Shown one piece after another: positions 16,895-51,997 of a DNA stretch of 64,000 bases. The notes below the pieces were generated by a model, which worked only from the letters and a program-made list of their open reading frames with translations, was not told where the DNA came from and did not search any database. The translations under genes were made by a program, and so were the position numbers. The number at the start of each line of letters is the position of its first letter. The first letter of the stretch is position 1. This DNA comes from Candidatus Enterococcus courvalinii (GTDB lineage: Bacteria; Bacillota; Bacilli; Lactobacillales; Enterococcaceae). The DNA lies in assembly GCF_017315945.1 (NCBI RefSeq), contig NZ_JAFLWI010000002.1:248001-312000 (forward strand). Direction: 5' to 3'.

Positions 16895-17317
16895 ATGGAA
16901 AAAACAACTCAGGCATTAAATGCGTTTATTGGTTTATTACGTGTAAGTGGACAACTAGAAGCTGTAGTGAAAAAAGACGTTAAAAATTATGGATTGAATA
17001 TTACCGAATTTTCCGTACTTGAGTTTCTTTACCACAAGGGAAAGCAAACACCACAAACAATCCAAGAGCGGATTTTGATTGCTAGCAGTAGTACTACCTA
17101 TGTGATTGATAAATTGGTCGCAAAAGGTTTAGCCGAGCGCAAAACGAATCAAGCGGATCGGCGTGAAACATATGTTGCGATTACCGATTCAGGCTGTCAA
17201 CTAATGGCTGAAATTTTCCCACAACACGCGGCAACAATTGGTCGATGTTTCGAGGATTTTGAATTAGACGAATTATTGCAACTAGAAAAATTATTAAAAA
17301 AAGTAAAAGATAACTGA
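16895..17317 (+). CDS. MarR-family regulator (MhqR-like)
   Basis: 140 residues with the winged helix of MarR proteins (PQTIQERILIASSSTTYVIDKLVAKGLAERKTNQADRRETYVAIT). A strong AAGGAGGTGGG ribosome site precedes it. It leads an operon of two glyoxalase-fold proteins, a flavin-reductase-like protein and a small DUF4649 protein. That composition resembles the MhqR-controlled quinone and electrophile response of Bacillus, so repression relieved by quinones is plausible but not shown by the sequence. Confidence 0.88.
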   Translation: MEKTTQALNAFIGLLRVSGQLEAVVKKDVKNYGLNITEFSVLEFLYHKGKQTPQTIQERILIASSSTTYVIDKLVAKGLAERKTNQADRRETYVAITDSGCQLMAEIFPQHAATIGRCFEDFELDELLQLEKLLKKVKDN

Positions 17318-17351
17318 CAATAAATAAAACTATGAAATGAGGAGATTTAAA

Positions 17352-18311
17352 ATGAATATCCAAGATAAACCTTTAGGAGTTCACCACGTAACTGCAATGA
17401 CAAGTGATATTAAGAAAAATTACCATTTCTTTACCGATATTTTGGGTATGCGTCTGGTGAAAAAAACAGTAAACCAAGATGATATCCAAACCTACCACAC
17501 GTATTATGCCGATGATTATGGTACACCTGGAACAACGATGACATTTTTTGACTTTCCTAATAATCCAAAAGGAGAGAAGGGAACTAATTCGATTTCAAGA
17601 ATTGGTTTTCGTGTTCCCACTGATGCAGCACTAGAATATTATCTACACCGTTTTGATGAGTTTGCTGTGAAACATGAAGAAATCTCTGAACTTTTTGGTA
17701 AGAAGATTTTACGTTTTTGGGATGAAGATGAGCAAGCTTATCAATTAATTTCCGATGAAAAGAACGAAGGGGTTCGCCCTGGTACCCCTTGGAAGAATGG
17801 ACCTGTTCCAACTGAGTTTGCTATTTACGGCTTAGGTCCTGTGGAAATCACAATTTCTTACTTTGATGATTTCCGTTCTCTTTTCGAAAATGTTTTAACC
17901 TTTAAAGAAATTGCTGTTGATGGTACTCGTCATTTGTTAGAAATCGGCGAAGGGGGGAATGGCGCACAAGTTATTTTAGTAGAAGACACTACTAGCCCTC
18001 AGGGACAACAAGGCTTTGGTGAAGTTCACCATGTCGCATTCCGCTTAGCTGATCGTAGTTCTTTAGAAGTTTGGCAAAAGATTTTTGACGATCTAGGGTT
18101 ACCAAATTCTGGTTATGTCAACCGCTACTATTTTGAATCACTTTATGTTCGCTTGGGACACATTTTAGTTGAATTTGCAACGGATGAGCCAGGTTTTATG
18201 GAGGATGAACCCTATGAAACTTTAGGCGAAATCTTATCGTTACCACCATTTTTAGAAAATCAACGTGCATCAATCGAAAGCGCGATTAAACCTTTTGATA
18301 CAAAGCGTTAA
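17352..18311 (+). CDS. ring-cleaving dioxygenase-like glyoxalase protein (MhqA/MhqO-like)
   Basis: 319 residues from the ATG at 17352, preceded by GAGGAG. Two vicinal-oxygen-chelate (glyoxalase) modules are visible. Likely metal ligands are in LGVHHVTAM near the start, VHHVAFR in the second half and the Glu of LVEFATDEPG. The family includes Bacillus hydroquinone-detoxifying dioxygenase-like proteins under MarR control. It sits second in the MarR-led operon and is paralogous to the next gene. Confidence 0.85.
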   Translation: MNIQDKPLGVHHVTAMTSDIKKNYHFFTDILGMRLVKKTVNQDDIQTYHTYYADDYGTPGTTMTFFDFPNNPKGEKGTNSISRIGFRVPTDAALEYYLHRFDEFAVKHEEISELFGKKILRFWDEDEQAYQLISDEKNEGVRPGTPWKNGPVPTEFAIYGLGPVEITISYFDDFRSLFENVLTFKEIAVDGTRHLLEIGEGGNGAQVILVEDTTSPQGQQGFGEVHHVAFRLADRSSLEVWQKIFDDLGLPNSGYVNRYYFESLYVRLGHILVEFATDEPGFMEDEPYETLGEILSLPPFLENQRASIESAIKPFDTKR

Positions 18312-20107: not shown

Positions 20108-20145
20108 AAAGAGGCTGAGATGAATTACATCTCAGCCTCTTTTAT
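20108..20145 (+). terminator. terminator of the MarR-led operon
   Basis: AAAGAGGCTGAGATG pairs perfectly with CATCTCAGCCTCTTT around five bases, followed by TTTA. Confidence 0.93.
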
Positions 20146-20274: not shown

Positions 20275-20338
20275 TTGTCAATTCTAGAAAAGAGTGCTAC
20301 TCTTTGGTTAACCATTTACTTTTATATGGTTAACCAAA
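20275..20338 (+). promoter_or_regulatory. biotin operon promoter with BirA operator
   Basis: A -35 TTGTCA (20275-20280) and -10 TACTCT (20298-20303) are 17 bases apart. Directly downstream, 13-bp arms TTTGGTTAACCAT (20303-20315) and ATGGTTAACCAAA (20326-20338) flank 10 bases. The half-sites TTGGTTAACC and GGTTAACCAA match the known BirA operator form. The operator starts at the -10, so biotinyl-AMP-bound BirA would block transcription when biotin is plentiful. Confidence 0.9.
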
Positions 20339-20430
20339 GGAAAGGACAGACTGGAAGTGAAATGAAATAAACTGCAATAGCTACACAAACGAAAAAAGAA
20401 ATAAATGAAATTTTAGAAGAGGTGTGCAAG

Positions 20431-21000
20431 ATGGAAAACAGAGTAAAAACATATAAGACTTTTGATGCAAAGATATTAGCAAAAATGGCGTTAATGTTAT
20501 CTTTAATCATCGTTTCGGGAATGATTACAATTCCTATCCCAGCACTAGGCGTTCCGATTGTTTTACAAAATATGTTTATTATGCTAACAGCAGGTTTTTT
20601 AGGGAAAAAGTATGGTTTTTGGACTATCGCTATGTTTTTATGCTTGGTATCGATGGGACTACCTCTGCTTGCAGGAGGACGAGGTGGAATTGTTTTACTA
20701 TTTAGTCCTAGTGGTGGTTTTCTGATTGGCTATTTCTTTTGTAGCTTCATTATATGTTCTATAGTAGAAAAATTGGGTGTTAAAAGCTATTGGAGAATAT
20801 TGATTGCTTACTTTATCGGTGGGACAATATTCATTAATTTTATGGGCAGTGTTACTTTAGCTTATTACAGTCATTCCTCATGGTGGTCTGGTCTAAAAAT
20901 GGCCGCATTCTTTCTTCCAATTGACACGGCTAAAGCCATCGTCGCCGCTATTATTTATCAACGACTAAAACGATATTCATTTATGGGAGAGAACCGATGA
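20431..21000 (+). CDS. bioY: biotin transporter BioY, ECF S-component
   Basis: 189 residues from the ATG at 20431, preceded by AGAGGTG. Six hydrophobic segments and the BioY blocks ITIPIPALGVPIVLQNMFIML, PLLAGGRGGI and LFSPSGGFLIGY are present. It imports biotin together with the shared ECF module encoded elsewhere. It is the first gene behind a BirA operator and its stop overlaps the next start (ATGA). Related to the yhfU position of the B. subtilis yhfUTS biotin-regulated cluster. Confidence 0.94.
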   Translation: MENRVKTYKTFDAKILAKMALMLSLIIVSGMITIPIPALGVPIVLQNMFIMLTAGFLGKKYGFWTIAMFLCLVSMGLPLLAGGRGGIVLLFSPSGGFLIGYFFCSFIICSIVEKLGVKSYWRILIAYFIGGTIFINFMGSVTLAYYSHSSWWSGLKMAAFFLPIDTAKAIVAAIIYQRLKRYSFMGENR

Positions 21001-22307
21001 TTCCGTTTAACAAAATTTCTCATGATCAAACTGCCCTTATTTATCATGAAGAAAGAATCAGTTATGGTGAGTTATTGCGAGTAAGTACATCCTATCAAGA
21101 AGCGTTAGAAAATACAGATGAGAAAATTATTTTTATTCCCATGGAAGAAACACCAAAAACAATTTATAAAATTGTGGCTTGTATGCTAGCAAAAAAAATA
21201 TTTGTTCCTGTTCCAGGGCAAGAAGCACTCTTTCATGTTCAAAAAATAATTGATTCATTTTCTTCTGCTGCTTTATGGATGGAGGAATTTGAGTATTTTA
21301 AAACAAAGAGAAATGAACTTGTTCTTCCAGAAGATACTCTCTTTATAGGCTTTACTTCAGGAACAACCGGTGAAAGAAAAGGATTTGTCCGCAATCAACA
21401 AAGTTGGCTACGAAGTTTTGAAATATTTCACTCAGTTCCAGTATTCCACCCCAAAAAATATGTTACTTGTCTAACACCGCTTCACTACTCATTAGGTTTA
21501 TACGTTTTATTGCAAACCTTATATTCTGGTCAAGCATTTATATTGGACATAAAAAGTATAGATGATTTACTGAACATGCCTGAGATTCTTAATAATGTGC
21601 AGATCTTTTCGGTACCTACAGTTTTTAGGTACTGGCTTGCTCGGATAAACAAAAAAATACTTGGAGCATTTGACGTCATTTTAGGTGGAGAGACGATGTC
21701 AGTTAAACAAAGAGAGCAGTTCTTCGCCCAGTGTCCAGATGCTAGTCTATACGTTTTTTACGGTACATCGGAATCAAGTTTTATCACTTATACTAGTGAT
21801 CGCTTCCCGGAGAATCACTGTGTAGGTCAAAACTTTCCTGAAGTGAAGATTAGTATTAAAAATAAAAAAAATTCAATAGGAAAGATTGTTGTAAATAGTC
21901 CAATGAATTTTCAAGGATATTTGAAAGAAGGCCAATTTTATCCAGCAGAAATGGAAATCTCAACAGGGGATTTGGGCATGTATAATAGAACTCTTTTTTA
22001 TTATGGTCGAGAAGATGAACGGATAAATCGGAAAGGTGAAAAAATATTTCCAACTGAAATCGAAGCAATAATGTTGCAATTACCGCAAGTCAAAGATCTA
22101 TCAATCTATGGATTGCCAGATCCGATACTTGGACAACGTGTTGTCGCTGAAGTGGTCTGGCAATCACAGCCACTTACATTAAAAGAGATCAACCAAAGAA
22201 TAAGAAAATATTCTTTTCGTAAAGTTAAAATAGATACAGTCATTACCGTTAATCAAGTATCTTATAGCGAGAGTGGAAAAAAAGAAAAAATAAGTCAGGA
22301 GAGCTGA
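20997..22307 (+). CDS. acyl-CoA ligase / AMP-forming synthetase (YhfT-like)
   Basis: 436 residues, rather short for the family (often about 500). The AMP-binding P-loop FTSGTTGERKGF, the YGTSES motif, the hinge STGDLGMYNRTLFYYGREDERINRKG and a C-terminal SESGKKEK with the catalytic Lys are present. It would activate a free acid as acyl-AMP and then thioester. It overlaps bioY by 4 bases and precedes a thiolase, as yhfT does in Bacillus. The acid substrate is unknown; control by BirA suggests a biotin-related or biotin-sparing lipid role. Confidence 0.87.
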   Translation: MIPFNKISHDQTALIYHEERISYGELLRVSTSYQEALENTDEKIIFIPMEETPKTIYKIVACMLAKKIFVPVPGQEALFHVQKIIDSFSSAALWMEEFEYFKTKRNELVLPEDTLFIGFTSGTTGERKGFVRNQQSWLRSFEIFHSVPVFHPKKYVTCLTPLHYSLGLYVLLQTLYSGQAFILDIKSIDDLLNMPEILNNVQIFSVPTVFRYWLARINKKILGAFDVILGGETMSVKQREQFFAQCPDASLYVFYGTSESSFITYTSDRFPENHCVGQNFPEVKISIKNKKNSIGKIVVNSPMNFQGYLKEGQFYPAEMEISTGDLGMYNRTLFYYGREDERINRKGEKIFPTEIEAIMLQLPQVKDLSIYGLPDPILGQRVVAEVVWQSQPLTLKEINQRIRKYSFRKVKIDTVITVNQVSYSESGKKEKISQES

Positions 22308-22308
22308 G

Positions 22309-23448
22309 ATGGAACGTGTATTTGTAATTGATGCTGCTCGAACACCTATCGGAAAATATGGCGGGAAGCTAGCAAATTTATTACCAGAAAACTTAGGTGG
22401 CATTTTACTAAGAAAATTACTACAAAGAAATAATATAAACAAAGTAGATGAAGTAATTGTAGGAAATGTAATTGGCGGCGGGGGAAATCTGGGTCGTAGA
22501 GTTGCGCTATCATCTGGTCTAAATATTCATGTTCCTGCTCTGACAATCGATCGCCAATGTGCGTCAGGTTTAGAAAGTATTTTAGTAGCAACTGCAAAAA
22601 TCAAAAGTGAAATGGACGAATGTATCGCGTGTGGTGGGGTGGAAAGTACGAGCCGTGCGCCATGGATGATTGAACGTCCGAGGAAGCTTTATGGTCATAC
22701 CCCAAGAATTCTAGAGCGGTCGCAATTGAGCATTGAAGAATATGGTGATCCAGAAATGGGAGAGGCGTGTGAAGATTTGGCAATGAAATTCCAAATTAGT
22801 CGATCAAAGCAAGATCACTATGCTTTTCAAAGCCAAATGAAATATCAAGCTGCGAAAACTAGGGGAGTATTCGAGAAAGAAATCATCTCTTTGAATCAAA
22901 TACACGAGGATGAAAGTCCTAGACCCAACACAACGGAGGAAAAATTAAATGGATTACCACCTGTATTTCGTAAAAACGGTACTTTGACTGCTGGTAATAG
23001 CTCTCCTTTAAATGATGGGGCAGCATTTTTACTTTTAGCGAGTGAAAAATACTGCCATCTAAATCAGATAACACCTCAGTTTGAAATTCTCTCTGGTAGT
23101 TCTATCGGTACAGCACCCGAAAAATTTGGCTTGGGTCCCGTTTACGCGACTGATAAATTACTAGCAATGAATGGATTAACTATCAATCAGATAGATCGTA
23201 TTGAGTTGAATGAAGCTTTTGCTGCACAAGTTTTAGCGTGTTTGGAAATAAGGGATTGGCCCCAAGATAAGATTAATATCTCAGGCGGAGCATTAGCTTT
23301 CGGACATCCCTTCGGTGCGACAGGAGCGATTCTAGTTCGACGCTTAATGACTGAATTGCAACAAGATAAAAAGTTAAAAACTGGTCTTGTAACAATGTGT
23401 GTTGGTGGCGGACAAGGTACTTCATTGATTATTCGTAAGGTTGACTAA
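22309..23448 (+). CDS. thiolase, acetyl-CoA acetyltransferase family (YhfS-like)
   Basis: 379 residues. Catalytic C84 lies in DRQCASGLES, NEAFAAQ and the GGALAFGHPFGATGA His block are present, and the second Cys is in CVGGGQG, so all thiolase active-site parts are kept. It can condense or cleave beta-ketoacyl thioesters. It starts 1 base after the ligase stop with an AGGAGAG ribosome site. Thiolase condensation uses acetyl-CoA, not malonyl-CoA, so it bypasses the biotin-dependent acetyl-CoA carboxylase; this may explain biotin control but is inference. Confidence 0.92.
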   Translation: MERVFVIDAARTPIGKYGGKLANLLPENLGGILLRKLLQRNNINKVDEVIVGNVIGGGGNLGRRVALSSGLNIHVPALTIDRQCASGLESILVATAKIKSEMDECIACGGVESTSRAPWMIERPRKLYGHTPRILERSQLSIEEYGDPEMGEACEDLAMKFQISRSKQDHYAFQSQMKYQAAKTRGVFEKEIISLNQIHEDESPRPNTTEEKLNGLPPVFRKNGTLTAGNSSPLNDGAAFLLLASEKYCHLNQITPQFEILSGSSIGTAPEKFGLGPVYATDKLLAMNGLTINQIDRIELNEAFAAQVLACLEIRDWPQDKINISGGALAFGHPFGATGAILVRRLMTELQQDKKLKTGLVTMCVGGGQGTSLIIRKVD

Positions 23449-23449
23449 A

Positions 23450-23791
23450 ATGAAAAAACAAATACGGATTACTAGTGCTGAAGTAACACAATACAAAAAA
23501 ATAGTATCATACCTGGGGAAAGGTTGGCCACAAGCATTTTTACTAACTTTATGGCGCTATTTTTTTGTAGAAGAATTGGATCAGATAGACCATTTATTAG
23601 TAGAGCAAAGTATCATTTGTAAAACTAAAATTATTTTAGATCAAGAATATGAAGTCACACTTGAGAGAACAGAAATACTCAAGAAAGAAAAAAATGAAAT
23701 TTGGTCGTACTTACTAACAATCGAGAAGGGAAATCATCTTTATGGAGAATGTAGAACCAAAATATACATCCGAACCTCTAGCAATGTTTAG
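23450..23791 (+). CDS. probable hot-dog fold partner of a split MaoC-type dehydratase
   Basis: 113 residues, ATG at 23450 one base after the thiolase stop. The second half (LVEQSIICKTKIILDQEYEVTLERTE followed by a GNHLYGECRTKIYI strand) resembles the non-catalytic N-terminal hot-dog domain of FAS1-like MaoC dehydratases. It lacks the D-H catalytic motif, which is in the next gene. The two genes overlap by 50 bases in different frames. Similarity is weak and the call rests on pattern and on its partner. Confidence 0.55.
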   Translation: MKKQIRITSAEVTQYKKIVSYLGKGWPQAFLLTLWRYFFVEELDQIDHLLVEQSIICKTKIILDQEYEVTLERTEILKKEKNEIWSYLLTIEKGNHLYGECRTKIYIRTSSNV

Positions 23792-24068
23792 TTTTTCTGA
23801 AACAGACGTATTAATCTATCAATCTTTTTCAGGAGATAAAAATCCCATTCATCAAACAGGTGTAATTTTTGGCATTCAACTAATGGCTCGGATTGAAGGA
23901 ATCTTGGATAGTGAGTTCTGTTTCAATGATTCGAGAAAGTATTCTTATTTTTTTTTAGAGAAAGTTATGGTTAGGGACACGATTAGTCTATATATAATTA
24001 ATCAGCATGATTTTGAAGTTTGGTGTCACAACAAAAAAGTGGGAAAAGGAAGAATTTTAAATGGATAA
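23742..24068 (+). CDS. MaoC-like enoyl-acyl hydratase/dehydratase, catalytic subunit
   Basis: 108 residues. The hydratase-2 motif FSGDKNPIH with catalytic Asp and His is complete, followed by a G-containing helix (VIFGIQLMARIEG). The start at 23742 has an AGAAGGG ribosome site and overlaps the upstream gene by 50 bases. It would interconvert 3-hydroxyacyl and 2-enoyl thioesters. At this length it is one hot-dog unit and likely needs a partner, as in HadAB-type split dehydratases. Confidence 0.75.
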   Translation: MENVEPKYTSEPLAMFSFSETDVLIYQSFSGDKNPIHQTGVIFGIQLMARIEGILDSEFCFNDSRKYSYFFLEKVMVRDTISLYIINQHDFEVWCHNKKVGKGRILNG

Positions 24069-24852
24069 AGTAGTTGTGATAGCAGGTGGCACAACAGGAA
24101 TTGGGCGCGAACTAGTAGACATCTATCTAACACATGGCTACTCAGTTGCTACTTTTTCTAGCCGAAAAGAAAAGACAGATGCGCTAAAAAAATCAGTACG
24201 CCAGCAAGAAAAAATATATATAGAAACTTTTGATATCCAAAATAAAAAATCAAGTAGCGATTTTGTAAGAAATGTGATAAATCAATTTGGGAGAATTGAC
24301 ATCTATATTTTTAATAGTGGTATTTGTCAAGATAAAACATTTAGCAAAATGACAGTTGAACAATGGGAGAAGGTTATTTCAGTCAATTTCACGAATACGT
24401 TCACATTGACTCAAGAGATTTTTAAACAGATGAAAACACAAGCCGGTCATAAAAAAATCTTTTTTATGACCTCGTTATCTGGCTTAGAAGGAGCATTTGG
24501 GCAGGCTAATTATGCTGCAAGCAAGGCTGCGTTAATTGGTCTAAGTAAAAGTTTGGCGCAAGAAAGCAAAAAATTTGCTATAGAAGTGAACGCCATTTCT
24601 CCAGCAGCATTGACAGATATGACTATACCAATTGTGAGTAAGATTGCCGAACAATGTAAAAGAGAGGAGAAGCCTTTCCCTGATTACTGGAAAATCGGCT
24701 CTGCTAAAGAAGCTGCTCAAAGCATTTATCGACTCTCAAACAATAAAACGATCGGAACAGGGGAAATCTTTGCCATCAATGGTTCAAAAATCGAGGTGTA
24801 TCGTCCCTTAGTTAAAGTACCGTTTCAATTAGGAGACAATGATGATTACTAA
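24061..24852 (+). CDS. SDR-family 3-ketoacyl reductase (FabG/PhaB-like)
   Basis: 263 residues of the short-chain dehydrogenase family. The cofactor motif is GGTTGIG near the N-terminus, followed by NSG, catalytic Ser in MTSLSG and the YAASK catalytic Tyr/Lys. It overlaps the dehydratase by 8 bases. In this operon it would reduce the beta-keto group made by the thiolase. The cofactor and chain length are unknown. Confidence 0.87.
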   Translation: MDKVVVIAGGTTGIGRELVDIYLTHGYSVATFSSRKEKTDALKKSVRQQEKIYIETFDIQNKKSSSDFVRNVINQFGRIDIYIFNSGICQDKTFSKMTVEQWEKVISVNFTNTFTLTQEIFKQMKTQAGHKKIFFMTSLSGLEGAFGQANYAASKAALIGLSKSLAQESKKFAIEVNAISPAALTDMTIPIVSKIAEQCKREEKPFPDYWKIGSAKEAAQSIYRLSNNKTIGTGEIFAINGSKIEVYRPLVKVPFQLGDNDDY

Positions 24853-25621
24853 TTTATTTAATTTGGACTATCCTATTATTCAAGGAGCGATGGCAAACAT
24901 TTCAAACGCAACATTAGTAGCTGCTGTTTCAGAGCAAGGCGCATTAGGAACTTTATCTTCTTATGGACTTACTGCTAAAGAGTTACAATCAGAAATTTGG
25001 AAGGTACGAAAAAAAACGAACAAAAATTTTTCTTGTAATTTGATGTTGCAACAAGAAAATATCAGCGAGCTATTACCTGTGATTCTCCATGAGAATGTCC
25101 CGATTGTAAGTATCAGCGCTGGCTTTAAACCAAAATTGATTCAAGAACTAAAGAGTAGGAACGTTAAAGTTATTTCTGTCGTAGGAAGCCGATATCAAGC
25201 AGAAAAAGTAATTGCTAATGAGGTTGATTGCATCGTAGCAGAAGGCAAAGAAGCCGGAGGGCACATAGGCGAAGCATCTCTTAATCAACTGATTGCTGAT
25301 ATAGTAACTATGACTAATATCCCTGTTGTCGCTGCAGGGGGCATCGGAAGTTCTGAAGAAATAAAAAATAAACTTCAGCTCGGGGTGAAAGGAGTACAAT
25401 TAGGAACCGCTTTTATGGTAAGCCAAGAATCTCCGCTGCCTCGAGCTATAAAAACATTATTGACGAATAAAATCAGCAAGACAAAGGTTGTTCATAATAT
25501 TAGCGGAGAAATACGTATAGCGAAAACGGATAATTACTTCGTACCTTGTGGAATGGGAATCAAAAGAATCAATCAAATCTCTAGTGTTGCTGAAATAATT
25601 GCTATGCTAAACAAACATTGA
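24839..25621 (+). CDS. nitronate monooxygenase / FabK-like flavin enoyl reductase
   Basis: 260 residues, shorter than FabK (about 310-320). The FMN-binding TIM-barrel features are GAMANISNATLVAAVSEQGALGTL, AEGKEAGGHIGE, VVAAGGIGSSEE and GVQLGTAF. It overlaps the SDR gene by 14 bases with AGGAG upstream; a second ATG at 24842 has better spacing. In a chain-modifying operon a FabK-type enoyl reductase would complete the cycle, though nitronate monooxygenases share these motifs. Confidence 0.78.
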   Translation: MMITNLFNLDYPIIQGAMANISNATLVAAVSEQGALGTLSSYGLTAKELQSEIWKVRKKTNKNFSCNLMLQQENISELLPVILHENVPIVSISAGFKPKLIQELKSRNVKVISVVGSRYQAEKVIANEVDCIVAEGKEAGGHIGEASLNQLIADIVTMTNIPVVAAGGIGSSEEIKNKLQLGVKGVQLGTAFMVSQESPLPRAIKTLLTNKISKTKVVHNISGEIRIAKTDNYFVPCGMGIKRINQISSVAEIIAMLNKH

Positions 25622-25706: not shown

Positions 25707-25760
25707 AACCTAAAGATAGTGTAAAGAAAAAGTAAAAATTCCACACTATCTTAGGTTTTT
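25707..25760 (+). terminator. terminator of the biotin-controlled operon
   Basis: AACCTAAAGATAGTGT pairs with ACACTATCTTAGGTT (one bulge), followed by TTTTTC. Confidence 0.8.
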
Positions 25761-26065
25761 CTAGGTTCACATAGTGATAAAACGACTTACTACTTATCTC
25801 TTTTAATCCGTCAATGCCTAAAGAGAACATACACACAAATGATACATAAAATTTTACTATCTCTCACGTTTACTTTGAGCTTCTGTTCAAATCCTACAGG
25901 TTTGAGTGTACTCCAAGCCAATTGTTTGATCTAAAATTTCTGACCTTTAGCTATTTTTCCGTTATAATAAATTTAGACAGTCTGAAAAAGCTCGTGGATA
26001 AATGACTCCACTCAGCTGTCGACTTCCTATTTACAATTGAATTTAGACTAAAAGGAGTTAAAAAA
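25761..26065 (+). promoter_or_regulatory. intergenic region with lipoprotein-gene promoter
   Basis: A -35-like CTGACC (25940-25945) and a -10 TATAAT (25963-25968) are spaced by 17 bases, about 100 bases before the lipoprotein start. AAAGGAG lies before the ATG. The rest of the stretch holds nothing I can identify. Confidence 0.6.
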
Positions 26066-40611: not shown

Positions 40612-40702
40612 TATAATAATTATTAGATTAGAATAATGAAAAATTATGCCGTTAGCTATTCTAATTGAATTATTGACCCACAAAGGAAAGGAGAGAATAG
40701 AA
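40612..40702 (+). promoter_or_regulatory. pilus locus 1 promoter and leader
   Basis: A -10 TATAAT (40612-40617) lacks a recognisable -35, consistent with dependence on an Mga-type activator. AAGGAG at 40688-40693 is followed 9 bases later by an in-frame ATT at 40703. Confidence 0.6.
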
Positions 40703-43700
40703 ATTAAATTATTGAAGAAACTTGGGATTATTGGTGCTGTGCTACTACTTGTTTCATCTTATTTAATGCCAATTACTGTGAATGCAGAAACTGTTGATAC
40801 CGTTGAAATCATGTCAGCGCAGATAACGACAGATGAGAATGACCAGACCTCTTTACAAGTGGATCTGAATCTTATCAATCAGACAGATAAGGCATTAAAA
40901 AAGGAAATCAAGTTGACAAATGCTCGCTTGATCGATACAAAAGAACGTCAAAAAGATGGTTACTCTTATCAAGTAGGAGATCATATTCTCAGTTTAACAA
41001 TTGCGAGTGGAACACATCAGCAAATTCAACTTTCGTTAGCTGTTGATTCTCAATCCTTAGATGTCACCCAAACACCTAAGTTATTGTACGAAAAAAATGA
41101 ATTTGAAGTATCTATCACGCCTGAGAAAACTGTGAGTGAAACGACTCCAAAAGAAACGGAAACAGATAGCACAACAGATAACACTATAGCAGAAGATAAT
41201 GATGTCAAGCCAGCTGATGAAGAAATCGTTCGTCCGTTTGCCCAATCAAAAATGACTGCAGCAGCTGATCTTTCTCAAAAGGCACAAGAGTCGATCATGC
41301 CAGAGTACACGACAGACAGCTCAGGAACTTATCCAACAGCTAGTTGGCAACCAACGAATAATCAGCAAGTTATCAATCACCAAGGGAATAAAGAAGGAAG
41401 CAGCACCGAATGGGACGGAGTAACTTCGTGGAATGGTGATCCACTAAACAAAACGAACTCGTATATTGAATATGGTGGTACTGGTGACCAAGCAGATTAT
41501 GCTATTCGTAAATATGCAAAAGAAACTTCGACGCCAGGACTATTTGACGTCTACTTAAATGTTCGGGGTAACGTTCAAAAGGAGATCATACCATTAGACT
41601 TAGTTTTGGTCGTTGACTGGTCAGGAAGTATGAACGATAACAATCGAATCGGAGAGGTCCAAAAAGGGGTCGATCGTTTCGTCGATACTTTAGCAGATAG
41701 CGAAATTACTGACAGTATTAGCATGGGCTACGTTGGATATTCAAGCGATGGCTACAGAAATGGCACAGTTCCGATAGGCTCGTTTGACTCTGTAAAAGAC
41801 CCAATCAAAAATATCACACCAAGTAGTACAACTGGAGGAACATTTACACAAAAAGCATTACGTGATGCCGGTGACATGCTAGCAACGCCCAATGGACACA
41901 AAAAAGTCATCGTTCTATTAACGGATGGCGTACCGACATTTTCATATAAAGTCAGTCGTGTTCAAACTGAAGCAGATGGTAGCTACTATGGTACAGAATT
42001 TACGAATCAACAAGATACACCAGGAAGCACTTCCTATATTTCAAGTAACTACAATGCGCGTGATCAAAATAATACGAACCGCCGAATCAATAGTACGTTT
42101 ATCGCGACGATTGGTGAAGCACTAGCTTTAAAACAACGTGGTATTGAAATTCATGGATTAGGTATTCAATTACAAAGTGATCCTCGTGCTAACTTATCGA
42201 AGCAAGAAGTTGAAAATAAAATGCGCCAAATGGTTTCTGAAGACGAGAATGGTGATTTGTACTATGAATCAGCTGATTATGCGCCAGATATCTCTGATTA
42301 TTTGGCAAAGAAAGCCGTTCAAATTGCAGGGACTGTCGTTAACGGAAACGTTACTGATCCAATTGCCGAACCATTTATTTATGAACCAGATACTTTAAGT
42401 ATTAAAAGCGTCGGAGCCGTCCAAGTTCCCTCTATGCCAAGTGTCACAATGAATGGAACAACGGTGAAAAGTGATGGTATTTATTTAGGTAAGCAACAAG
42501 AAATTCAAATTCATTATCAAATTAGGCTACAAACTGAGTCAGACTCATTCAAACCAGATTTCTGGTACCAAATGAACGGTCGAACAACTTTTCAACCAAT
42601 GGCAACTTCAAGTGAACTTGCAGATTTCGGTGTTCCTTCTGGTAAGGCTCCTGGAGTCAAATTGAATTTCAAAAAACTTTGGGAAGAATTCGATCAAGAC
42701 ACAAGCAGTCGACCAGAAAACGTTACTTATGAAGTCACACGTAAACAAGTAACGAATTCAGCGAATTGGCAGACTGGTTACATCAAGATTTTGAAACCTG
42801 AAAATGACACTAGCAACACATGGGAAAGAACCAATATCACACAGTTATCCAAAACAGCTGATGATTCTTATGATGAAACCCTTAGTCTTCCTCAATACAA
42901 CAATCAAGGGGAAAATTTCAGCTATCAGATGACTAATGAAGTTGCAGTGCCAGGTTATGACCAAGAAAAAGTCGATGAGACAACTTGGAAAAACACGAAG
43001 CAATTCAAGCCATTAGATTTGAAAGTAATCAAAAATTCTTCAACTGGTGAAAAAAATCTCGAAGGAGCAATTTTTGAATTAACTGGAGATGGTGTAAAAA
43101 CAAGTTTGATTGACAACCAAGATGGTAGTTATTCGTTACCTAAAGAAATTCGTTTACAAAAAGGACAGACCTACACACTGACAGAGCTCCAGGCTCCGAA
43201 CGGTCATGAACTAGGTGAAAAGACAACTTGGGACATTGAGATCACGAACCAAGGTACAGTGAAGATCGATGGGAAAGAAGTCACTGCGACTAACCAAGTA
43301 ATTTCATTAGAAATTGAAAACCAATTTTCCGAGTTGCCAGTCAATATCAGAAAGTACACGCTTCAAAACGGTAACCAAATCAATCTAGCAGATACAACAT
43401 TTGAATTGCAAAGAAAAGATGAGCAAGGTATCTATCAAAAAGTAGGTACTGAAAAAACAGATCAAACGGGGATTGCGCATTTTGTGATTGATCAGTCGGG
43501 AATGTATCGAATGGTCGAAACTTCTGGTCCAGTCGGGTATGACACGCTCGCTGGAAATTATGAATTCGAAGTTGATAAATATGGACAGATTCATTATGCA
43601 GGTAAGAATGTCGACGAAGAAGCAAAAGAATGGACAATATCTCACGAAAATCATTTAAAAGCTTTTGATTTGACGGTTCACAAAAAAGCGGATAATCAAA

Positions 43701-44107
43701 CAGCGTTAAAAGGAGCAAGATTCCGCTTAACTGGTCCAGATACAGATATTGAATTACCAAAAGATGACGAAGACACAGATACATTCCTCTTTGAAAACTT
43801 GCAACCTGGTAAATATACGTTAACGGAAACATTTACTCCTGAAGGTTATCAAGGCTTAAAAGAACCTATTCAACTTGTGATTAATGAAGATGGCACAGTA
43901 ACTATTGACGGAAAAGGAATCGATGATGTACTCGTCACTGGTGAACAAAACAACCAAATCAGCTTAGATGTAACGAACCAAGCAAAAATCCCTCTACCAG
44001 AAACTGGTGGAATTGGTCGTGTTTGGCTCTACTTGATTGCTGTAATTAGTTTAGCAACAGTCGGTGGTTATCTATTCATCAAGCAACGACCAGAAGGAGA
44101 GGTGTAA
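40703..44107 (+). CDS. ebpA: pilus tip adhesin, vWA domain, LPXTG-anchored (EbpA/EmpA-like), AUU start
   Basis: About 1134 residues if read from ATT at 40703. An in-frame ATG at 40646 has no ribosome site and would put 19 residues before the signal peptide, while AAGGAG sits 9 bases before the ATT. E. faecalis ebpA is known to start with ATT. The signal peptide (KLLKKLGIIGAVLLLVSSYL to VNAE) is followed by a vWA domain with MIDAS motif DWSGSMN (D305), CnaB-type repeats with E-box (YTLTEL, YTLTETFTPEGYQG), LPETGG, a membrane helix and a basic tail. It sits at the pilus tip and binds host ligands. Confidence 0.92.
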   Translation: MKLLKKLGIIGAVLLLVSSYLMPITVNAETVDTVEIMSAQITTDENDQTSLQVDLNLINQTDKALKKEIKLTNARLIDTKERQKDGYSYQVGDHILSLTIASGTHQQIQLSLAVDSQSLDVTQTPKLLYEKNEFEVSITPEKTVSETTPKETETDSTTDNTIAEDNDVKPADEEIVRPFAQSKMTAAADLSQKAQESIMPEYTTDSSGTYPTASWQPTNNQQVINHQGNKEGSSTEWDGVTSWNGDPLNKTNSYIEYGGTGDQADYAIRKYAKETSTPGLFDVYLNVRGNVQKEIIPLDLVLVVDWSGSMNDNNRIGEVQKGVDRFVDTLADSEITDSISMGYVGYSSDGYRNGTVPIGSFDSVKDPIKNITPSSTTGGTFTQKALRDAGDMLATPNGHKKVIVLLTDGVPTFSYKVSRVQTEADGSYYGTEFTNQQDTPGSTSYISSNYNARDQNNTNRRINSTFIATIGEALALKQRGIEIHGLGIQLQSDPRANLSKQEVENKMRQMVSEDENGDLYYESADYAPDISDYLAKKAVQIAGTVVNGNVTDPIAEPFIYEPDTLSIKSVGAVQVPSMPSVTMNGTTVKSDGIYLGKQQEIQIHYQIRLQTESDSFKPDFWYQMNGRTTFQPMATSSELADFGVPSGKAPGVKLNFKKLWEEFDQDTSSRPENVTYEVTRKQVTNSANWQTGYIKILKPENDTSNTWERTNITQLSKTADDSYDETLSLPQYNNQGENFSYQMTNEVAVPGYDQEKVDETTWKNTKQFKPLDLKVIKNSSTGEKNLEGAIFELTGDGVKTSLIDNQDGSYSLPKEIRLQKGQTYTLTELQAPNGHELGEKTTWDIEITNQGTVKIDGKEVTATNQVISLEIENQFSELPVNIRKYTLQNGNQINLADTTFELQRKDEQGIYQKVGTEKTDQTGIAHFVIDQSGMYRMVETSGPVGYDTLAGNYEFEVDKYGQIHYAGKNVDEEAKEWTISHENHLKAFDLTVHKKADNQTALKGARFRLTGPDTDIELPKDDEDTDTFLFENLQPGKYTLTETFTPEGYQGLKEPIQLVINEDGTVTIDGKGIDDVLVTGEQNNQISLDVTNQAKIPLPETGGIGRVWLYLIAVISLATVGGYLFIKQRPEGEV

Positions 44108-44110
44108 CGA

Positions 44111-45535
44111 ATGAAAAACGCGCGATTATTAAAACTGTGTGTGTTCGTTCTTGTACTTTTCGGCTTTTCACAACAAGCATTAGCAGAAAATACGCAGGCA
44201 AACGTTCAGATTACTTTACACAAATTACTATTTCCTGAAGGTCAGTTACCTACAGAACAAGAAAATTCTGGTGAAGAAGGTACCTTACTACAAAATTATC
44301 GTGGGCTCAATGATGTGGATTATCAAGTATTTGACGTAACGGATTCCTTTTATCAGTTACGCAGTGGGGGAGATTCTGTTCAATCAGCTCAAACTAAATT
44401 GGCTCAAACTGGCGCTTCAGCTGGGGATCTGGTTGCTGAAGGAACAACAAGTCATGTAAACGGTGAAGATGGGATTTTATCTTTCACTTTGTCAAGTAAA
44501 GATGAAAAACAACGTGATAAAGCTTATTTATTTATTGAAGTTAACGCACCAGAAGTTGTCAAAGAAAAAGCAAGTAATCTGGTCGTGATTTTACCAGTAC
44601 AAGATGCAAACGGCGCTGATTTGTCGACAATTCATCTTTACCCTAAAAATGAAGAAAATGCGTACGACCTACCACCACTAGAAAAAACTGTGTTGGAGGG
44701 AGAATCTGGATTTACTGTGGGTGACGCTGTTCACTATCAATTAAAGACAACCGTTCCAACAAACATCTTAGATTATCAACAGTTTCGTATTTCAGATACT
44801 GCTGATCCAGTGCTGACACTTTTACCACATACACTGAAGGTATCCGTGGATGGCCAAGAGTTAACCAATGGCTATACGACAAAGACGCACGCACATGGAT
44901 TTACGTTAGATTTTTCAATTCAAGAACTCCAGAAATTTGCGAAGAAACAACTAGTAATTTCTTACCAGATGACACTAGGAAAAGATGCGAAACCTGATAC
45001 AGCTATTCTGAATGAAGGTCGTTTAGACAGCGACAAACATTCCATCACAAAGAAAACAGCTGTACGAACAGGTGGCAAACGATTTGTTAAAGTCTCTAGT
45101 GAAAATCAATCAGAAAAACTGTCTGGGGCAGTCTTTCTCGTAAAAGACCAAGCAGGTAACTACTTACATGAATCAGCTAGTGGCTACATTTGGAACAAAG
45201 AGAAGCAAACAGCACAGCAATTTTCATCTGACCGTTCTGGAAATTTTTCAGTTAAAGGTCTAAGAGATGGACATTATTTCTTAGAAGAGATCAAAGCTCC
45301 TGATAATTACGTTTTAAGTCAGGAAACAATTCCATTTACGATTACAGAACATTCTTATTTATCTAATGGGCAAGAGACGACGCCTTTAAAAATCGTCAAT
45401 AAAAAGATAAAACATTCAGGACTATTACCAAAAACAAATGACCAACAAACCGTTTGGTGGGGACTACTTGGAATAGTATTAATTGGCGTAGTCATTGGTT
45501 GGATCTTTTATCAAAAACGAGGAGCAAAAAAATGA
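44111..45535 (+). CDS. ebpB: minor/basal pilin, LPXTG-like anchored (EbpB-like)
   Basis: 474 residues. A signal peptide ends near QALAEN. A YPKN motif (K179) for sortase C linkage lies in IHLYPKNEE. A CnaB-type domain with E-box YFLEEIKAPDNYVL precedes a sorting signal LPKTN, a membrane helix and a KKRGAKK-like tail. LPKTN departs from LPXTG by Asn in place of Gly. It is 3 bases after the tip-adhesin gene and overlaps the major pilin start (ATGA). Probably the base or minor subunit of the pilus. Confidence 0.9.
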   Translation: MKNARLLKLCVFVLVLFGFSQQALAENTQANVQITLHKLLFPEGQLPTEQENSGEEGTLLQNYRGLNDVDYQVFDVTDSFYQLRSGGDSVQSAQTKLAQTGASAGDLVAEGTTSHVNGEDGILSFTLSSKDEKQRDKAYLFIEVNAPEVVKEKASNLVVILPVQDANGADLSTIHLYPKNEENAYDLPPLEKTVLEGESGFTVGDAVHYQLKTTVPTNILDYQQFRISDTADPVLTLLPHTLKVSVDGQELTNGYTTKTHAHGFTLDFSIQELQKFAKKQLVISYQMTLGKDAKPDTAILNEGRLDSDKHSITKKTAVRTGGKRFVKVSSENQSEKLSGAVFLVKDQAGNYLHESASGYIWNKEKQTAQQFSSDRSGNFSVKGLRDGHYFLEEIKAPDNYVLSQETIPFTITEHSYLSNGQETTPLKIVNKKIKHSGLLPKTNDQQTVWWGLLGIVLIGVVIGWIFYQKRGAKK

Positions 45536-47415
45536 AACAGTTTAAAAAAGTTTGGTATTTATTAAGCACATTGTTACTGACCTTGCCACTTTTTACAGGT
45601 CTATTAAGTACAGTTCCAGCTTTTGCAGCAGAAAATGATGGCACAGCAAAAGTTATCTTACACAAAAAGAAAATGACTGATTTTCCTGACCCATTAATTC
45701 AAAATAGTGGGAAAGAAATGAGTGAATTCGACCAGTATCAAGGGCTAGCTGGTGTCACATTTAGTGTTTACGACGTGACAGCAGAATTTTATGCACAACG
45801 TGAAGCAGGTGCAACAGTTGATGCTGCTAAGCAAGCTGTTCAAGGATTAACAACAGGCACACCATTTGCACAAGGTACAACCGATGCGAACGGAAACGTC
45901 AGCTTAGATTTACCAAAAAAACAACAAGGTAAAGACGCAGTTTACACCATCAAAGAAGAAGCAAAAGATGGCGTGACTGCTGCAGCAAATATGGTCGTTG
46001 CTTTTCCTGTTTATGAACTAATCAAACAAGCAGATGGTTCTTACAAATACGGAACAGAAGAATTAACAACTATTCATCTTTATCCAAAAAATATTGTAGC
46101 CAACGATGGTGCACTACACGTCAAAAAAGTTGGTACTGCTGAAAATGAATCTTTAAATGGCGCAGAATTTGTTATCTCAAAAACAGAAGGAACTCCAAGC
46201 GTCGTAAAATATATCCAAGGTGTGAAAGATGGGCTTTATACTTGGACAACTGATAAAAACCAAGCGAAGCACTTCATCACTGGAAAAGACTATGCAATTG
46301 GTGAAAATGATTTTACAGAAACAGATGCTGCAACTGGTGAATTGACAATCAAAAATCTTGAAGTCGGTTCTTATGTACTAGAGGAAGTTAAAGCACCTGA
46401 TAATGCAGAATTAATTGAAAGCCAAACAAAAACAGATTTTACAATTGAAGCTGATAACCAAACAGCTGTAGAAAAAACAATTAAAAATGACACATCAAAA
46501 GTAGAAAAAACAACCCCTAATTTAGATGGACAAGACGTTGCAATTGGCGAAAAAATCCAATATGAGATTTCTGTTAATATTCCTTTAGGTATTGCAGATA
46601 AAGAAGGCGATGCAAATAAATATGTTAAATTCAATCTGATTGATACCCATGACGAAGCCTTGACTTTTGACAACATTGCTTCAGGTGACAATGCCTATGC
46701 ACTTTATGATGGCGACACATTAATTCCACCAGCAAATTATCAAGTGACAGAACAAGAAAATGGCTTCACTGTAGCAGTTGATCCTGCATTTATCCCTTCA
46801 TTGACGCCAGGCGGTACTTTGAAATTTGTTTACTACATGCATTTAAATGAAAAAGCAGATCCAACTAAAGGATTTAAAAACGAAGCTAACGTAGATAACG
46901 GACACACAGATGATAAAACACCTCCAACCGTTGAAGTTGTTACTGGTGGGAAAAGATTTATCAAAGTGGATGGCGACGTTTCATCAGCGCAAGCTTTAGC
47001 AGGTGCTTCATTTGTCGTACGTGACCAAGATAGTGACACAGCTAATTACTTGAAAATCGATGAAGCAACAAAAGCAGTTACTTGGGTGAAAAACAAAGAA
47101 GATGCCACTACTTTCACAACATCGGCAGATGGGCTAGTAGACGTAACAGGGTTAGACTACGGAACGTATTACTTGGAAGAAACAGTTGCTCCTAACGACT
47201 ACGTTTTATTAACAAATCGAATTGAATTTGAAGTTGATGAACACTCATACGGAACAACTGAAAACTTAGTTGCTCCAGAAAAAGTTCCAAACAAACACAA
47301 AGGAACTTTACCTTCAACTGGTGGTAGAGGAATCTACTTGTACATTGGTACAGGCGCTTTATTACTGGTTGTTGTAGGGCTATACTTTGCTAAACGTCGC
47401 AAAGAAAATGTATAG
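45532..47415 (+). CDS. ebpC: major pilin backbone subunit, LPXTG-anchored (EbpC-like)
   Basis: 627 residues from the ATG at 45532, after an AGGAGC ribosome site. The signal peptide ends near VPAFAAEN. The pilin motif YPKN with linkage Lys K186 lies in IHLYPKNIV. CnaB-type domains have E-boxes YVLEEVKAPDN and YYLEETVAPNDYVL, and the sorting signal is LPSTGG. Sortase C joins the Thr of one subunit to K186 of the next to build the shaft. It shares YDVTAEFY, IHLYPKN and DEHSYGT stretches with the preceding minor pilin, showing common origin. Confidence 0.93.
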   Translation: MKQFKKVWYLLSTLLLTLPLFTGLLSTVPAFAAENDGTAKVILHKKKMTDFPDPLIQNSGKEMSEFDQYQGLAGVTFSVYDVTAEFYAQREAGATVDAAKQAVQGLTTGTPFAQGTTDANGNVSLDLPKKQQGKDAVYTIKEEAKDGVTAAANMVVAFPVYELIKQADGSYKYGTEELTTIHLYPKNIVANDGALHVKKVGTAENESLNGAEFVISKTEGTPSVVKYIQGVKDGLYTWTTDKNQAKHFITGKDYAIGENDFTETDAATGELTIKNLEVGSYVLEEVKAPDNAELIESQTKTDFTIEADNQTAVEKTIKNDTSKVEKTTPNLDGQDVAIGEKIQYEISVNIPLGIADKEGDANKYVKFNLIDTHDEALTFDNIASGDNAYALYDGDTLIPPANYQVTEQENGFTVAVDPAFIPSLTPGGTLKFVYYMHLNEKADPTKGFKNEANVDNGHTDDKTPPTVEVVTGGKRFIKVDGDVSSAQALAGASFVVRDQDSDTANYLKIDEATKAVTWVKNKEDATTFTTSADGLVDVTGLDYGTYYLEETVAPNDYVLLTNRIEFEVDEHSYGTTENLVAPEKVPNKHKGTLPSTGGRGIYLYIGTGALLLVVVGLYFAKRRKENV

Positions 47416-47490
47416 AAGCTAAGCTTGTGTTAAAAAGTGAAGCAAGACTTTCGGTTTGAAAAACAATCGAAGGATTCTATCTACCAAAAC

Positions 47491-47534
47491 AATAAAAGAG
47501 CCTGAGACATTGTGTTGTCCTAGGCTCTTTTATT
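47491..47534 (+). terminator. hairpin between the major pilin and sortase genes
   Basis: AATAAAAGAGCCT pairs with AGGCTCTTTTATT. It could end or attenuate the pilin transcript before sortase. Confidence 0.75.
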
Positions 47535-47561
47535 TATTGATCTTCATCCAAGGAGGAATCC

Positions 47562-48407
47562 ATGAAACGTAAAAACAGACGACGAGTGATCGACAGCATA
47601 ATGATTCTTTTATTGTTCATTGGCATAGGTGCTTTAGCTTATCCTTTTGTCAGTGATGCTTTGAATAACTACCTCGATCAACAGATCATTTCTCATTATC
47701 AAACAAAAGCCAATCAAGAAAATGCGGATGCAATGGCAAAGTTACAAGAAAAAATGGAAACGAAAAATCAGCAACTGGCTAAGGAAGGTGGAAATCCGGG
47801 ACTAGATCCTTTTTCTGAACAAAAAAAACCAGATAAAAAACCAGATAAAACTTATTTTGAAAGTCATACGATTGGTGTCCTGACGATTCCAAAAATCAAT
47901 GTTCGGCTACCTATTTTTGATAAAACGAATGCATTGTTATTAGAAAAGGGGAGTTCCTTACTAGAAGGTACTTCTTATCCTACTGGTGGCGCTAGCACTC
48001 ATGCAGTAATTTCTGGCCACCGAGGGTTACCACAAGCAAAGCTTTTCACTGATTTACCTGAGTTAACTGAAGGTGATGAATTTTATTTGGAAGTGAACGG
48101 CAAAACGCTCGCCTATCAAGTAGATCAAATCAAAACGGTTGAACCTACGGATACGCAATATCTGCATATCGAAGAAGGAAAAGATCTAGTAACTTTATTG
48201 ACTTGCACACCTTACATGATCAATAGTCATCGCTTATTAGTGAGAGGACACCGTATACCCTATACACCAGAAAAAGTTTCGAAAGGAATCAAAAAAGTCA
48301 CTCAGCGCCACCAACTTTTACTATGGGGTATTCTTCTAAGTACATTGCTCCTGATTAGTTTATTGTTGCTCTTCTTTTACAGACGACACCAACGAAAAAG
48401 CATGTAA
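47562..48407 (+). CDS. srtC: class C sortase, pilus polymerase
   Basis: 281 residues. An N-terminal membrane helix (about 12-32) and a C-terminal helix (about 252-272) frame the catalytic domain. The active site is H153 (ISGHRGL), C215 (TLLTCTPY) and R224 (HRLLVRG). The lid motif D82-P83-F84 of class C pilin sortases is present. It would polymerise the three pilins encoded upstream. AAGGAGG precedes the ATG. A hairpin 30 bases upstream may set its level apart from the pilins, as sortase has its own transcript in the E. faecalis bps arrangement. Confidence 0.94.
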   Translation: MKRKNRRRVIDSIMILLLFIGIGALAYPFVSDALNNYLDQQIISHYQTKANQENADAMAKLQEKMETKNQQLAKEGGNPGLDPFSEQKKPDKKPDKTYFESHTIGVLTIPKINVRLPIFDKTNALLLEKGSSLLEGTSYPTGGASTHAVISGHRGLPQAKLFTDLPELTEGDEFYLEVNGKTLAYQVDQIKTVEPTDTQYLHIEEGKDLVTLLTCTPYMINSHRLLVRGHRIPYTPEKVSKGIKKVTQRHQLLLWGILLSTLLLISLLLLFFYRRHQRKSM

Positions 48408-50941: not shown

Positions 50942-51976
50942 ATGCAAAAACGTGACTTTATCGATACAAATGATTATTCAAGAGAAGAAGTAGATTACTT
51001 GATTGAATTGGGATTAAAATTAAAAGAATCAATTGCGAATGGGTACTATCCTCCATTATTGAAAAACAAAACGTTAGGAATGATTTTTGAGCAATCTTCT
51101 ACACGCACACGTGTATCTTTTGAAACAGCTATGACACAACTAGGTGGGCACGCACAATACCTTGCACCTGGACAAATTCAATTAGGCGGGCACGAAAGTC
51201 TAGGAGACACTTCTCGCGTTTTATCTCGTTTGGTAGATATTTTGATGGCCCGGGTAGAACGTCATAACTCAGTAGTTGAATTAGCCAAGACAGCAACAAT
51301 TCCTGTAATCAATGGCATGAGTGATTACAATCATCCCACTCAAGAGCTAGGTGACATCATCACCATGACCGAACATCTGCCAGCTGGCAAAAAATTGAGT
51401 GACTGTAAAGTTGTTTTTGTCGGAGATGCGACACAGGTTTGTGTTTCTCTAATGTTTATTGCAACAAAAATGGGGATGAACTTTGTTCAATTCGGTCCAG
51501 AAGGATTCCAAATCAAACCAGAAACATTGGCCATTGGTGAAGCAAATGCAAAAATATCTGGCGGAAGCGTATTAATTACTGAGGATGCTGATCTTGCAAT
51601 GAAAGATGCAGACTTTGTTTATACCGATGTTTGGTATGGCTTGTACGAAGCGGAACTATCCGAAGAAGAACGAATGAACGTGTTCTATCCAAAATATCAA
51701 GTCAATGCAGACTTAATGAAAAAAGCTGCGCCACACGCTAAATTTATGCATTGTCTACCAGCTACTCGTGGTGAAGAAGTAACTGACGAAGTATTGGATG
51801 CACCTTGCTCAGTTGTACTAGACGAAGCTGAAAACAGATTAACAGCGATGCGGGCTTTATTAGTTTACTTCTTAAATCCGTACTTAAACTATGCGAGTGA
51901 AGCAGTGGCAACAACATACGATAGTGAATTTGAGCGTCTATTGCGTCAAACAAAACAATACGAACGCAAAAATTAA
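50942..51976 (+). CDS. ptcA: putrescine carbamoyltransferase
   Basis: 344 residues (also called aguB). It converts N-carbamoylputrescine and phosphate to putrescine and carbamoyl phosphate. The carbamoyl-phosphate loop [10 protein letters not shown], the HPTQELGD motif and [10 protein letters not shown] are present, as are a long C-terminal helix ([17 protein letters not shown]) typical of PTCs. GAAGGAGAATG precedes the ATG. It opens the agmatine operon ptcA-aguD-aguA, which yields ATP only if a carbamate kinase is supplied from elsewhere, as none is encoded here. Confidence 0.95.
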
Positions 51977-51997
51977 AGTTAGAAAGGAGCAAGGATA

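Follow-up and report, generated by a model that had tools for sequence, protein, structure and literature searches.

A BirA-type operator precedes a conserved Lactobacillales operon for a putative reductive acyl-CoA cycle that may salvage a shortened biotin vitamer

In B. subtilis, BioY, a ligase, and a thiolase (yhfS-yhfT with bioY) are under the control of BirA (PMC11089781), and biotin-dependent repression of yhfT-yhfS by BirA has been reported in S. aureus (PMC6391492, PMC7235819). The staphylococcal genes vraA, vraB, and vraC are syntenic with a following VraP-like gene (PMC10620731). VraC and VraP of S. aureus possibly form a stable complex and are reported to affect cell-wall metabolism (PMC10620731, citing Wang and Sun 2021), and vraA-vraB-vraC have been described as fatty-acid metabolism genes (PMC11730646). 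The available text of this literature gives no established function for the BirA-regulated ligase–thiolase pair of Bacillus and Staphylococcus. The ligase–thiolase core is already known; for the full operon treated here, for bisnorbiotin salvage, and for a full cycle behind BirA, no description was found in the open-access literature searched, and earlier priority is possible. For B. subtilis, we take bioY to be yhfU and assume the gene order bioY-yhfT-yhfS; as in that module, bioY, ligase, and thiolase lie jointly behind a BirA-type site in the operon described below.

The window is a stretch of 64,000 nucleotides from Candidatus Enterococcus courvalinii. Its ORF listing places seven ORFs on the same strand (20422-25621), with 1-base gaps or short overlaps between neighbors. 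This confirms the tight packing of overlapping or nearly touching starts noted in the first-pass annotation and supports its view of the genes as a single operon. The order is bioY, AMP-forming ligase, thiolase, two hot-dog-type subunits, SDR ketoreductase, and a short FabK-like enoyl reductase (Table 1). For bioY, the ATG at 20431 is the likely start by reading; the first start given by the tool is a GTG at 20422. A terminator scan of the region found six terminator-like sites versus 3.4 in shuffles, and the long stem beyond the operon is absent from the output of that scan, whose loop limit is 8. Composition carries no signature of recent transfer (operon G+C 0.362 versus 0.361 for the window). 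As judged from their sequences, the operon genes are real and conserved.

Table 1. Features of the bioY-led operon and its flanks (window positions).
Feature	Position	Strand	Basis
BirA-type operator, TTGGTTAACC-N14-GGTTAACCAA	20304..20337	+	perfect inverted repeat
bioY, biotin S-component	20431..21000	+	PF02632 1.1e-28; L. lactis BioY 4dve 7.2e-28
AMP-forming acyl-CoA ligase	20997..22307	+	PF00501, PF13193
Thiolase with Cys84, His333, Cys364	22309..23448	+	PF00108, PF02803
Hot-dog subunit A, presumed non-catalytic partner, HadA-like	23450..23791	+	
Hot-dog-type subunit B, presumed catalytic, MaoC/HadB-like, D32-x-N-P-x-H37	23742..24068	+	
FabG-type SDR ketoreductase (N109, S138, Y151, K155)	24061..24852	+	PF00106 3.9e-44
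Short FabK-like FMN enoyl reductase, GGHIG 140-144	24839..25621	+	TIGR03151 2.5e-56 below cut-off; PDB FabK matches 2.9e-39
Terminator-like hairpin between operon and upstream genes	20108..20142	both	15-pair stem, 7 G-C
Probable terminator closing the operon; long stem with a large loop, followed by a T-rich tail	25709..25762	+	by eye

Residues that are catalytic in the respective families are widely kept. T120-S121-G122, T124-G125, D325, R338, and K428 are identical in 10/10 ligases compared, D32, N34, P35, H37, and G44 of subunit B in all 12 rows, the four SDR residues of Table 1 in all ten rows, and GGHIG of the FabK-like protein in 8/8. The three thiolase residues are all present in each of three aligned sequences; across the Lactobacillales rows of the thiolase tree, the Cys84 motif is found in 8/8, the Cys364 motif in 7/7 complete rows, and the His motif pattern in 6/7. 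Among NCBIfam models, the thiolase matches the general subfamily model first and then 3-oxoadipyl-CoA thiolases. The enoyl reductase resembles FabK by domain and motif, at 191 bits against a TIGR03151 cut-off of 453 and with 260 aa against a model of 307 positions.

The assignment of the dehydratase is less direct. Searches of Pfam, NCBIfam, and the PDB returned no sequence relatives of subunit A, and a further search gave two chance-level RNA polymerase matches. A hot-dog fold is predicted (pLDDT 82.8, from an alignment of two sequences), and mycobacterial HadAB, HadBC, and HadBD chains head its fold list; several thioesterases and an uncharacterized hot-dog protein lie within 1 Z of the top. 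Since thioesterases tie with HadA, the fold alone does not assign a function. Subunit B matches MaoC below the Pfam cut-off, a search for HadAB-type sequence homology gave E 0.24, and hhalign lent no support to a relationship between A and B (probability 6%). Families and conserved residues of the thiolase, ketoreductase, dehydratase, and enoyl reductase support the earlier proposal of a reductive, reverse-beta-oxidation-like cycle with all steps encoded, the dehydratase being assigned by its motif and the fold of subunit A, below the Pfam cut-off. Because the operon has a FabK-type enzyme and no acyl-CoA dehydrogenase, the cycle probably runs in the reductive direction, i.e., elongation.

The operator at 20304-20337 was recognized with what we take to be the BirA consensus. 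In the source genome (2.617 Mb, 29 contigs, 99.99% complete), the exact core GTTAAC-N16-GTTAAC occurs at two places versus 0.29 expected from base composition, one before each of two bioY genes; the second precedes a solo bioY (L003). One-mismatch cores occur at six more places, which were taken as noise since the backward control gave 30. BirA itself is represented by a PF03099 match at C23, a 326-aa ORF of L015 with an N-terminal helix-turn-helix seen by eye. A BirA-type repeat precedes bioY in nine of the 11 bioY-led Lactobacillales operons (eight of ten besides the operon studied here), in some cases with each half altered at one or two positions; the site in L054 is a palindrome laid out in the same way around a different core (TTGTCACC), and L058 lacks a BirA-type repeat before bioY. 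A biotin-sensing switch, presumably bound by BirA, thus appears to control the bioY-led operon, as the first-pass annotation had proposed. A -10-like hexamer ending 3 bases before the operator core was in the best-scoring pair at only 3/11 places (L033, L053, L003), and the region is not enriched in promoter-like sites (16 versus 19.6 in shuffles); a general promoter claim was therefore dropped.

In the genome check called for earlier, a search of the source genome gave no bioB match. Biotinyl/lipoyl domains occur at five places; reading of the translations assigns two of them to PDH E2 and one each to AccB, pyruvate carboxylase, and a small protein resembling GcvH. In L014, the translations likewise indicate a FASII/ACC cluster that extends from fabT to accA and lacks fabK. 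The only clear FabK-family match genome-wide is the gene of the operon itself, so that a different, non-FabK type of enzyme presumably serves as the housekeeping enoyl reductase. Codon adaptation of the seven operon genes is 0.46-0.55 versus 0.52-0.65 for nine FAS enzymes (one-sided p 0.001); the reference set comprised three genes only, and fabT (0.468) was left out of the FAS set. This leans slightly, as a weak argument, toward a trace flux.

Relatives of the ligase were found in 3/105 Enterococcaceae genomes (E 1e-20), 2/398 genomes of a class sample (1e-40), and 10/395 of an order sample (1e-70). Among named genomes, a pattern scan picked up E. thailandicus and Agrilactobacillus yilanensis, plus a single weak match in Parahaliea. 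In all ten complete Lactobacillales loci (the window, L033, L034, and L053-L059; L038, at a contig end, and L037, a duplicate of L033, were left out), bioY, ligase, thiolase, A, B, and SDR follow in this order, and the FabK-like gene is present in eight, being missing in L034 and L054. bioY is the first gene in 11/11 Lactobacillales operons read. A bioB gene over the cut-off was found in six of 11 carrier genomes (five of genus g177 and G169) and in none of G033, G076, G500, and G611; in G756, a bioA-like gene and another bioY lie beside bioB by reading. Among 72,556 plasmid records, the SDR of the Lactobacillales operon had no match at 1e-40, and the ligase had one match at 1e-20, in an S. 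aureus record.

Relatives also occur outside the order. L036 (G169, Staphylococcus-like by its neighboring genes) and the S. aureus locus L042 encode a ligase, a thiolase, a 129- or 121-aa protein, and an 89-aa protein. On four plasmids, of Azospirillum lipoferum, A. ramasamyi, Paracoccus yeei, and Paracoccus sp., bioY, ligase, and thiolase are contiguous, with ECF energizing genes at three of these clusters. BioY matches are present in 104 plasmid records, of which 18 were inspected and yielded these four; two were picked because their genera had just shown the cluster, and many records were read with short flanks. No BioR box was found in 11 alphaproteobacterial loci with the consensus that we assume for this site. 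Three Rhizobium plasmids carry thioesterase-ligase-thiolase, with bioY absent from the stretch shown. Rhizobium accounts for 57 of the best 60 plasmid thiolases listed, and the bioY-linked thiolases found here are not among these 60.

In a thiolase tree of 23 rows, six of them general thiolases, the eight Lactobacillales thiolases form one clade (100/100), and those of Staphylococcus, Azospirillum, Paracoccus, and Rhizobium form a separate one (99/96); whether the two are sisters depends on the root. Glycine replaces the third catalytic cysteine in the Staphylococcus (including S. aureus) and Azospirillum thiolases and in 2/3 Rhizobium rows, the pattern being unread in the third Rhizobium row and in Paracoccus. 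Because of this replacement in the staphylococcal and Azospirillum enzymes, the core chemistry may differ between groups. Little was drawn from the ligase tree, which has a single outgroup row on a long branch.

The explanation that we rank first, held tentatively and at somewhat less than an even chance, is a BirA-repressed operon for the salvage of a shortened biotin vitamer, in which bisnorbiotin plus a C2 unit yields biotin. When biotin is scarce, BirA repression would be lifted and BioY would import a biotin-like acid with a short side chain, such as bisnorbiotin, a host biotin catabolite. The ligase would turn this acid into its CoA thioester, and the thiolase would join acetyl-CoA to give a 3-oxoacyl-CoA. 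Reduction by the SDR and then dehydration by the hot-dog pair would follow, after which the FabK-like flavoprotein would reduce the resulting enoyl thioester; the product, biotinyl-CoA, would finally release biotin (or biotinyl-AMP). In this scheme, we infer BirA binding, the reductive direction, the single turn, the identity of the substrate, and product release.

This salvage is ranked first because, in two phyla, ligase and thiolase adjoin the gene of a biotin transporter, and the repeated BioY neighborhood favors an imported biotin-like acid as the substrate. The leading position of bioY in every Lactobacillales operon, its contiguity on the four alphaproteobacterial plasmids, the lack of bioB in the source genome, and, weakly, the low codon bias are counted in its favor. 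The constant core of ligase and thiolase comprises the two steps that FASII cannot supply, and the variable rest those that FASII might supply: SDR and FabK do not adjoin in Staphylococcus, two of ten Lactobacillales loci lack FabK, and the alphaproteobacterial clusters lack dehydratase, SDR, and enoyl reductase. Bisnorbiotin is the obvious candidate substrate, being of the same order as biotin in human serum (21-591 versus 140-356 pmol/l) and urine (11-39 versus 18-77 nmol a day; PMC9106636). Microbial assays failed for biotin metabolites (PMC9106636), so use of bisnorbiotin was not general among the assay organisms. Counted against the salvage are a specificity for the biotin ring that is not visible in any sequence feature, the lack of a dedicated thioesterase for biotin release, bioB over the cut-off in six of 11 carriers, the glycine in the thiolases of the relatives, thiolase clades joined only by the choice of root, the lack of BioR boxes and of a place for the bioY-linked thiolases among the best 60 listed, and the narrow alphaproteobacterial sampling (18/104). 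With the roles that we assume for its residues, the BioY pocket does not discriminate, an arginine being found in 12/12 linked BioYs and also in 8/16 others.

The first-pass annotation had favored a bypass of acetyl-CoA carboxylase, in which acyl-CoAs are extended with acetyl-CoA for primers or fatty acids when biotin, and with it malonyl-CoA, is short. We consider this a serious rival, albeit an unlikely one. The complete reductive cycle and the biotin-type operator on which it was built have stood, the genome has a biotin-dependent ACC and FASII, and the description of vraA-vraB-vraC as fatty-acid metabolism genes (PMC11730646) points the same way. However, the bypass does not explain why the neighbor of ligase and thiolase is a gene for biotin transport in two phyla, four alphaproteobacterial plasmids included. 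It also predicts a large fatty-acid flux, yet the codon bias of the operon is low (weak argument), and a ligase is superfluous for synthesis from acetyl-CoA alone. Gram-positive bacteria make their phospholipids from acyl-ACP and acyl-phosphate, and acyl-CoA is not the usual donor in these bacteria.

Somewhat more doubtful is a role in the envelope or membrane, in which a different small acid, be it branched, aromatic, or dicarboxylic, is elongated or remodeled and shares no more than its regulation with biotin uptake. The 3-oxoadipyl-CoA thiolases as next NCBIfam matches, the Rhizobium plasmids in which no bioY is seen beside thioesterase-ligase-thiolase, and the VraC/VraP complex with its effect on cell-wall metabolism (PMC10620731) are consistent with it, but it leaves unexplained why bioY always heads the Lactobacillales operons and why it neighbors the ligase in Azospirillum and Paracoccus. 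A role in the beta-oxidative breakdown of biotin or some other acid is very unlikely: the ligase, thiolase, hydratase, and SDR could catalyze the reverse reactions, but the operon has a FabK-type reductase and no acyl-CoA dehydrogenase, and expression is expected under biotin shortage. Synthesis of a biotin precursor, also raised earlier, is the least probable reading, for although glutaryl-CoA and acetyl-CoA might give pimeloyl-CoA via the same steps behind the BirA-type operator, we rejected this pimelate route for the source genome, which has no bioB to finish biotin, and five of 11 carriers have none over the cut-off. The salvage suggested earlier alongside such synthesis is kept as that of a shortened vitamer rather than a precursor.

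If a shortened vitamer is indeed salvaged, host-derived biotin catabolites would be a usable vitamin for some colonizers; a bypass, if true, would mean that some bacteria can elongate acyl chains with no biotin-dependent enzyme. The wider notion of a BirA-switched vitamin repair, in which a single reverse-beta-oxidation turn rebuilds biotin from bisnorbiotin and vraABC-vraP is a reduced version, is offered with more reserve than the salvage itself.

Of the known systems, yhfS-yhfT with bioY of B. subtilis is described in the available text of PMC11089781 without mention of further cycle enzymes. The Azospirillum and Paracoccus clusters differ from the window operon in that dehydratase, SDR, and enoyl reductase do not adjoin. 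To the mycobacterial (3R)-hydroxyacyl-ACP dehydratase HadAB, subunits A and B show no significant sequence similarity. In the S. aureus plasmid record, bioY, SDR, and FabK do not adjoin, and identity to the window proteins is 27% for the ligase, 38% for the thiolase, and 19-20% for the small proteins. This locus matches the window operon in the succession of ligase, thiolase, and two small proteins, and it has an operator-like GTTAAC-N15-GTTTAC before the ligase. The plasmid record does not carry the names, and we infer that such staphylococcal loci are vraABC-vraP and the BirA target yhfT-yhfS, with VraC and VraP as subunits A and B. The full-cycle Lactobacillales operon suggests the chemistry of the pair (activation, C2 elongation, and full reduction) and links this chemistry with the import of biotin, and it offers an enzymatic reading of VraC and VraP, which have been described as affecting cell-wall metabolism.

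The biotin operon holds the only clear FabK relative of the genome, and the FASII/ACC cluster (locus L014 of the same genome) lacks fabK. The solo BioY encoded at 17204-17755 of a further locus of this genome, L003, is without the Asp of the D-x-x-K motif, which is present in most other aligned BioY proteins. On four Lactobacillaceae plasmids (L071, L072, L075, and L078), bioY adjoins a biotin-ligase gene. Two other clusters of the window, judged from their translation starts, look like gene sets for putrescine carbamoyltransferase, an antiporter, and agmatine deiminase, and for a pilus with its sortase, respectively.

Coordinates of gene clusters outside the biotin operon
Feature	Sequence	Coordinates	Remark
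Pilus and sortase gene cluster (putative)	Window	40646-48407	Translation starts read
Putrescine carbamoyltransferase, antiporter, and agmatine deiminase cluster (putative)	Window	50942-54464	Translation starts read
FASII/ACC cluster	L014	3295-12007	

In the ligase-linked thiolases of L036, L042, L087, L089, L091, and L094, which belong to Staphylococcus, Azospirillum, and Rhizobium, the third catalytic Cys is replaced by Gly within a GIGGG motif. Three Rhizobium plasmids (L091, L092, and L094) carry consecutive thioesterase, ligase, and thiolase genes, the thioesterase of L091 being of the YbgC/FadM type, and no bioY was found within the stretch shown of these plasmids. Among the plasmid thiolases listed, the 60 best included 57 from Rhizobium. 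Biotin auxotrophy is described for strains of R. etli and R. phaseoli (PMC8914248).

Among the Lactobacillales loci with a related operon, both L033 and L038 have a gene read as a LysR-type regulator near the operon, as well as one read as an aldo/keto reductase. In a third, L054, the bioY gene is preceded, upstream of 6449, by the perfect palindrome TTGTCACC-N15-GGTGACAA in place of the usual BirA core; its layout is that of BirA-type sites, but the core differs.
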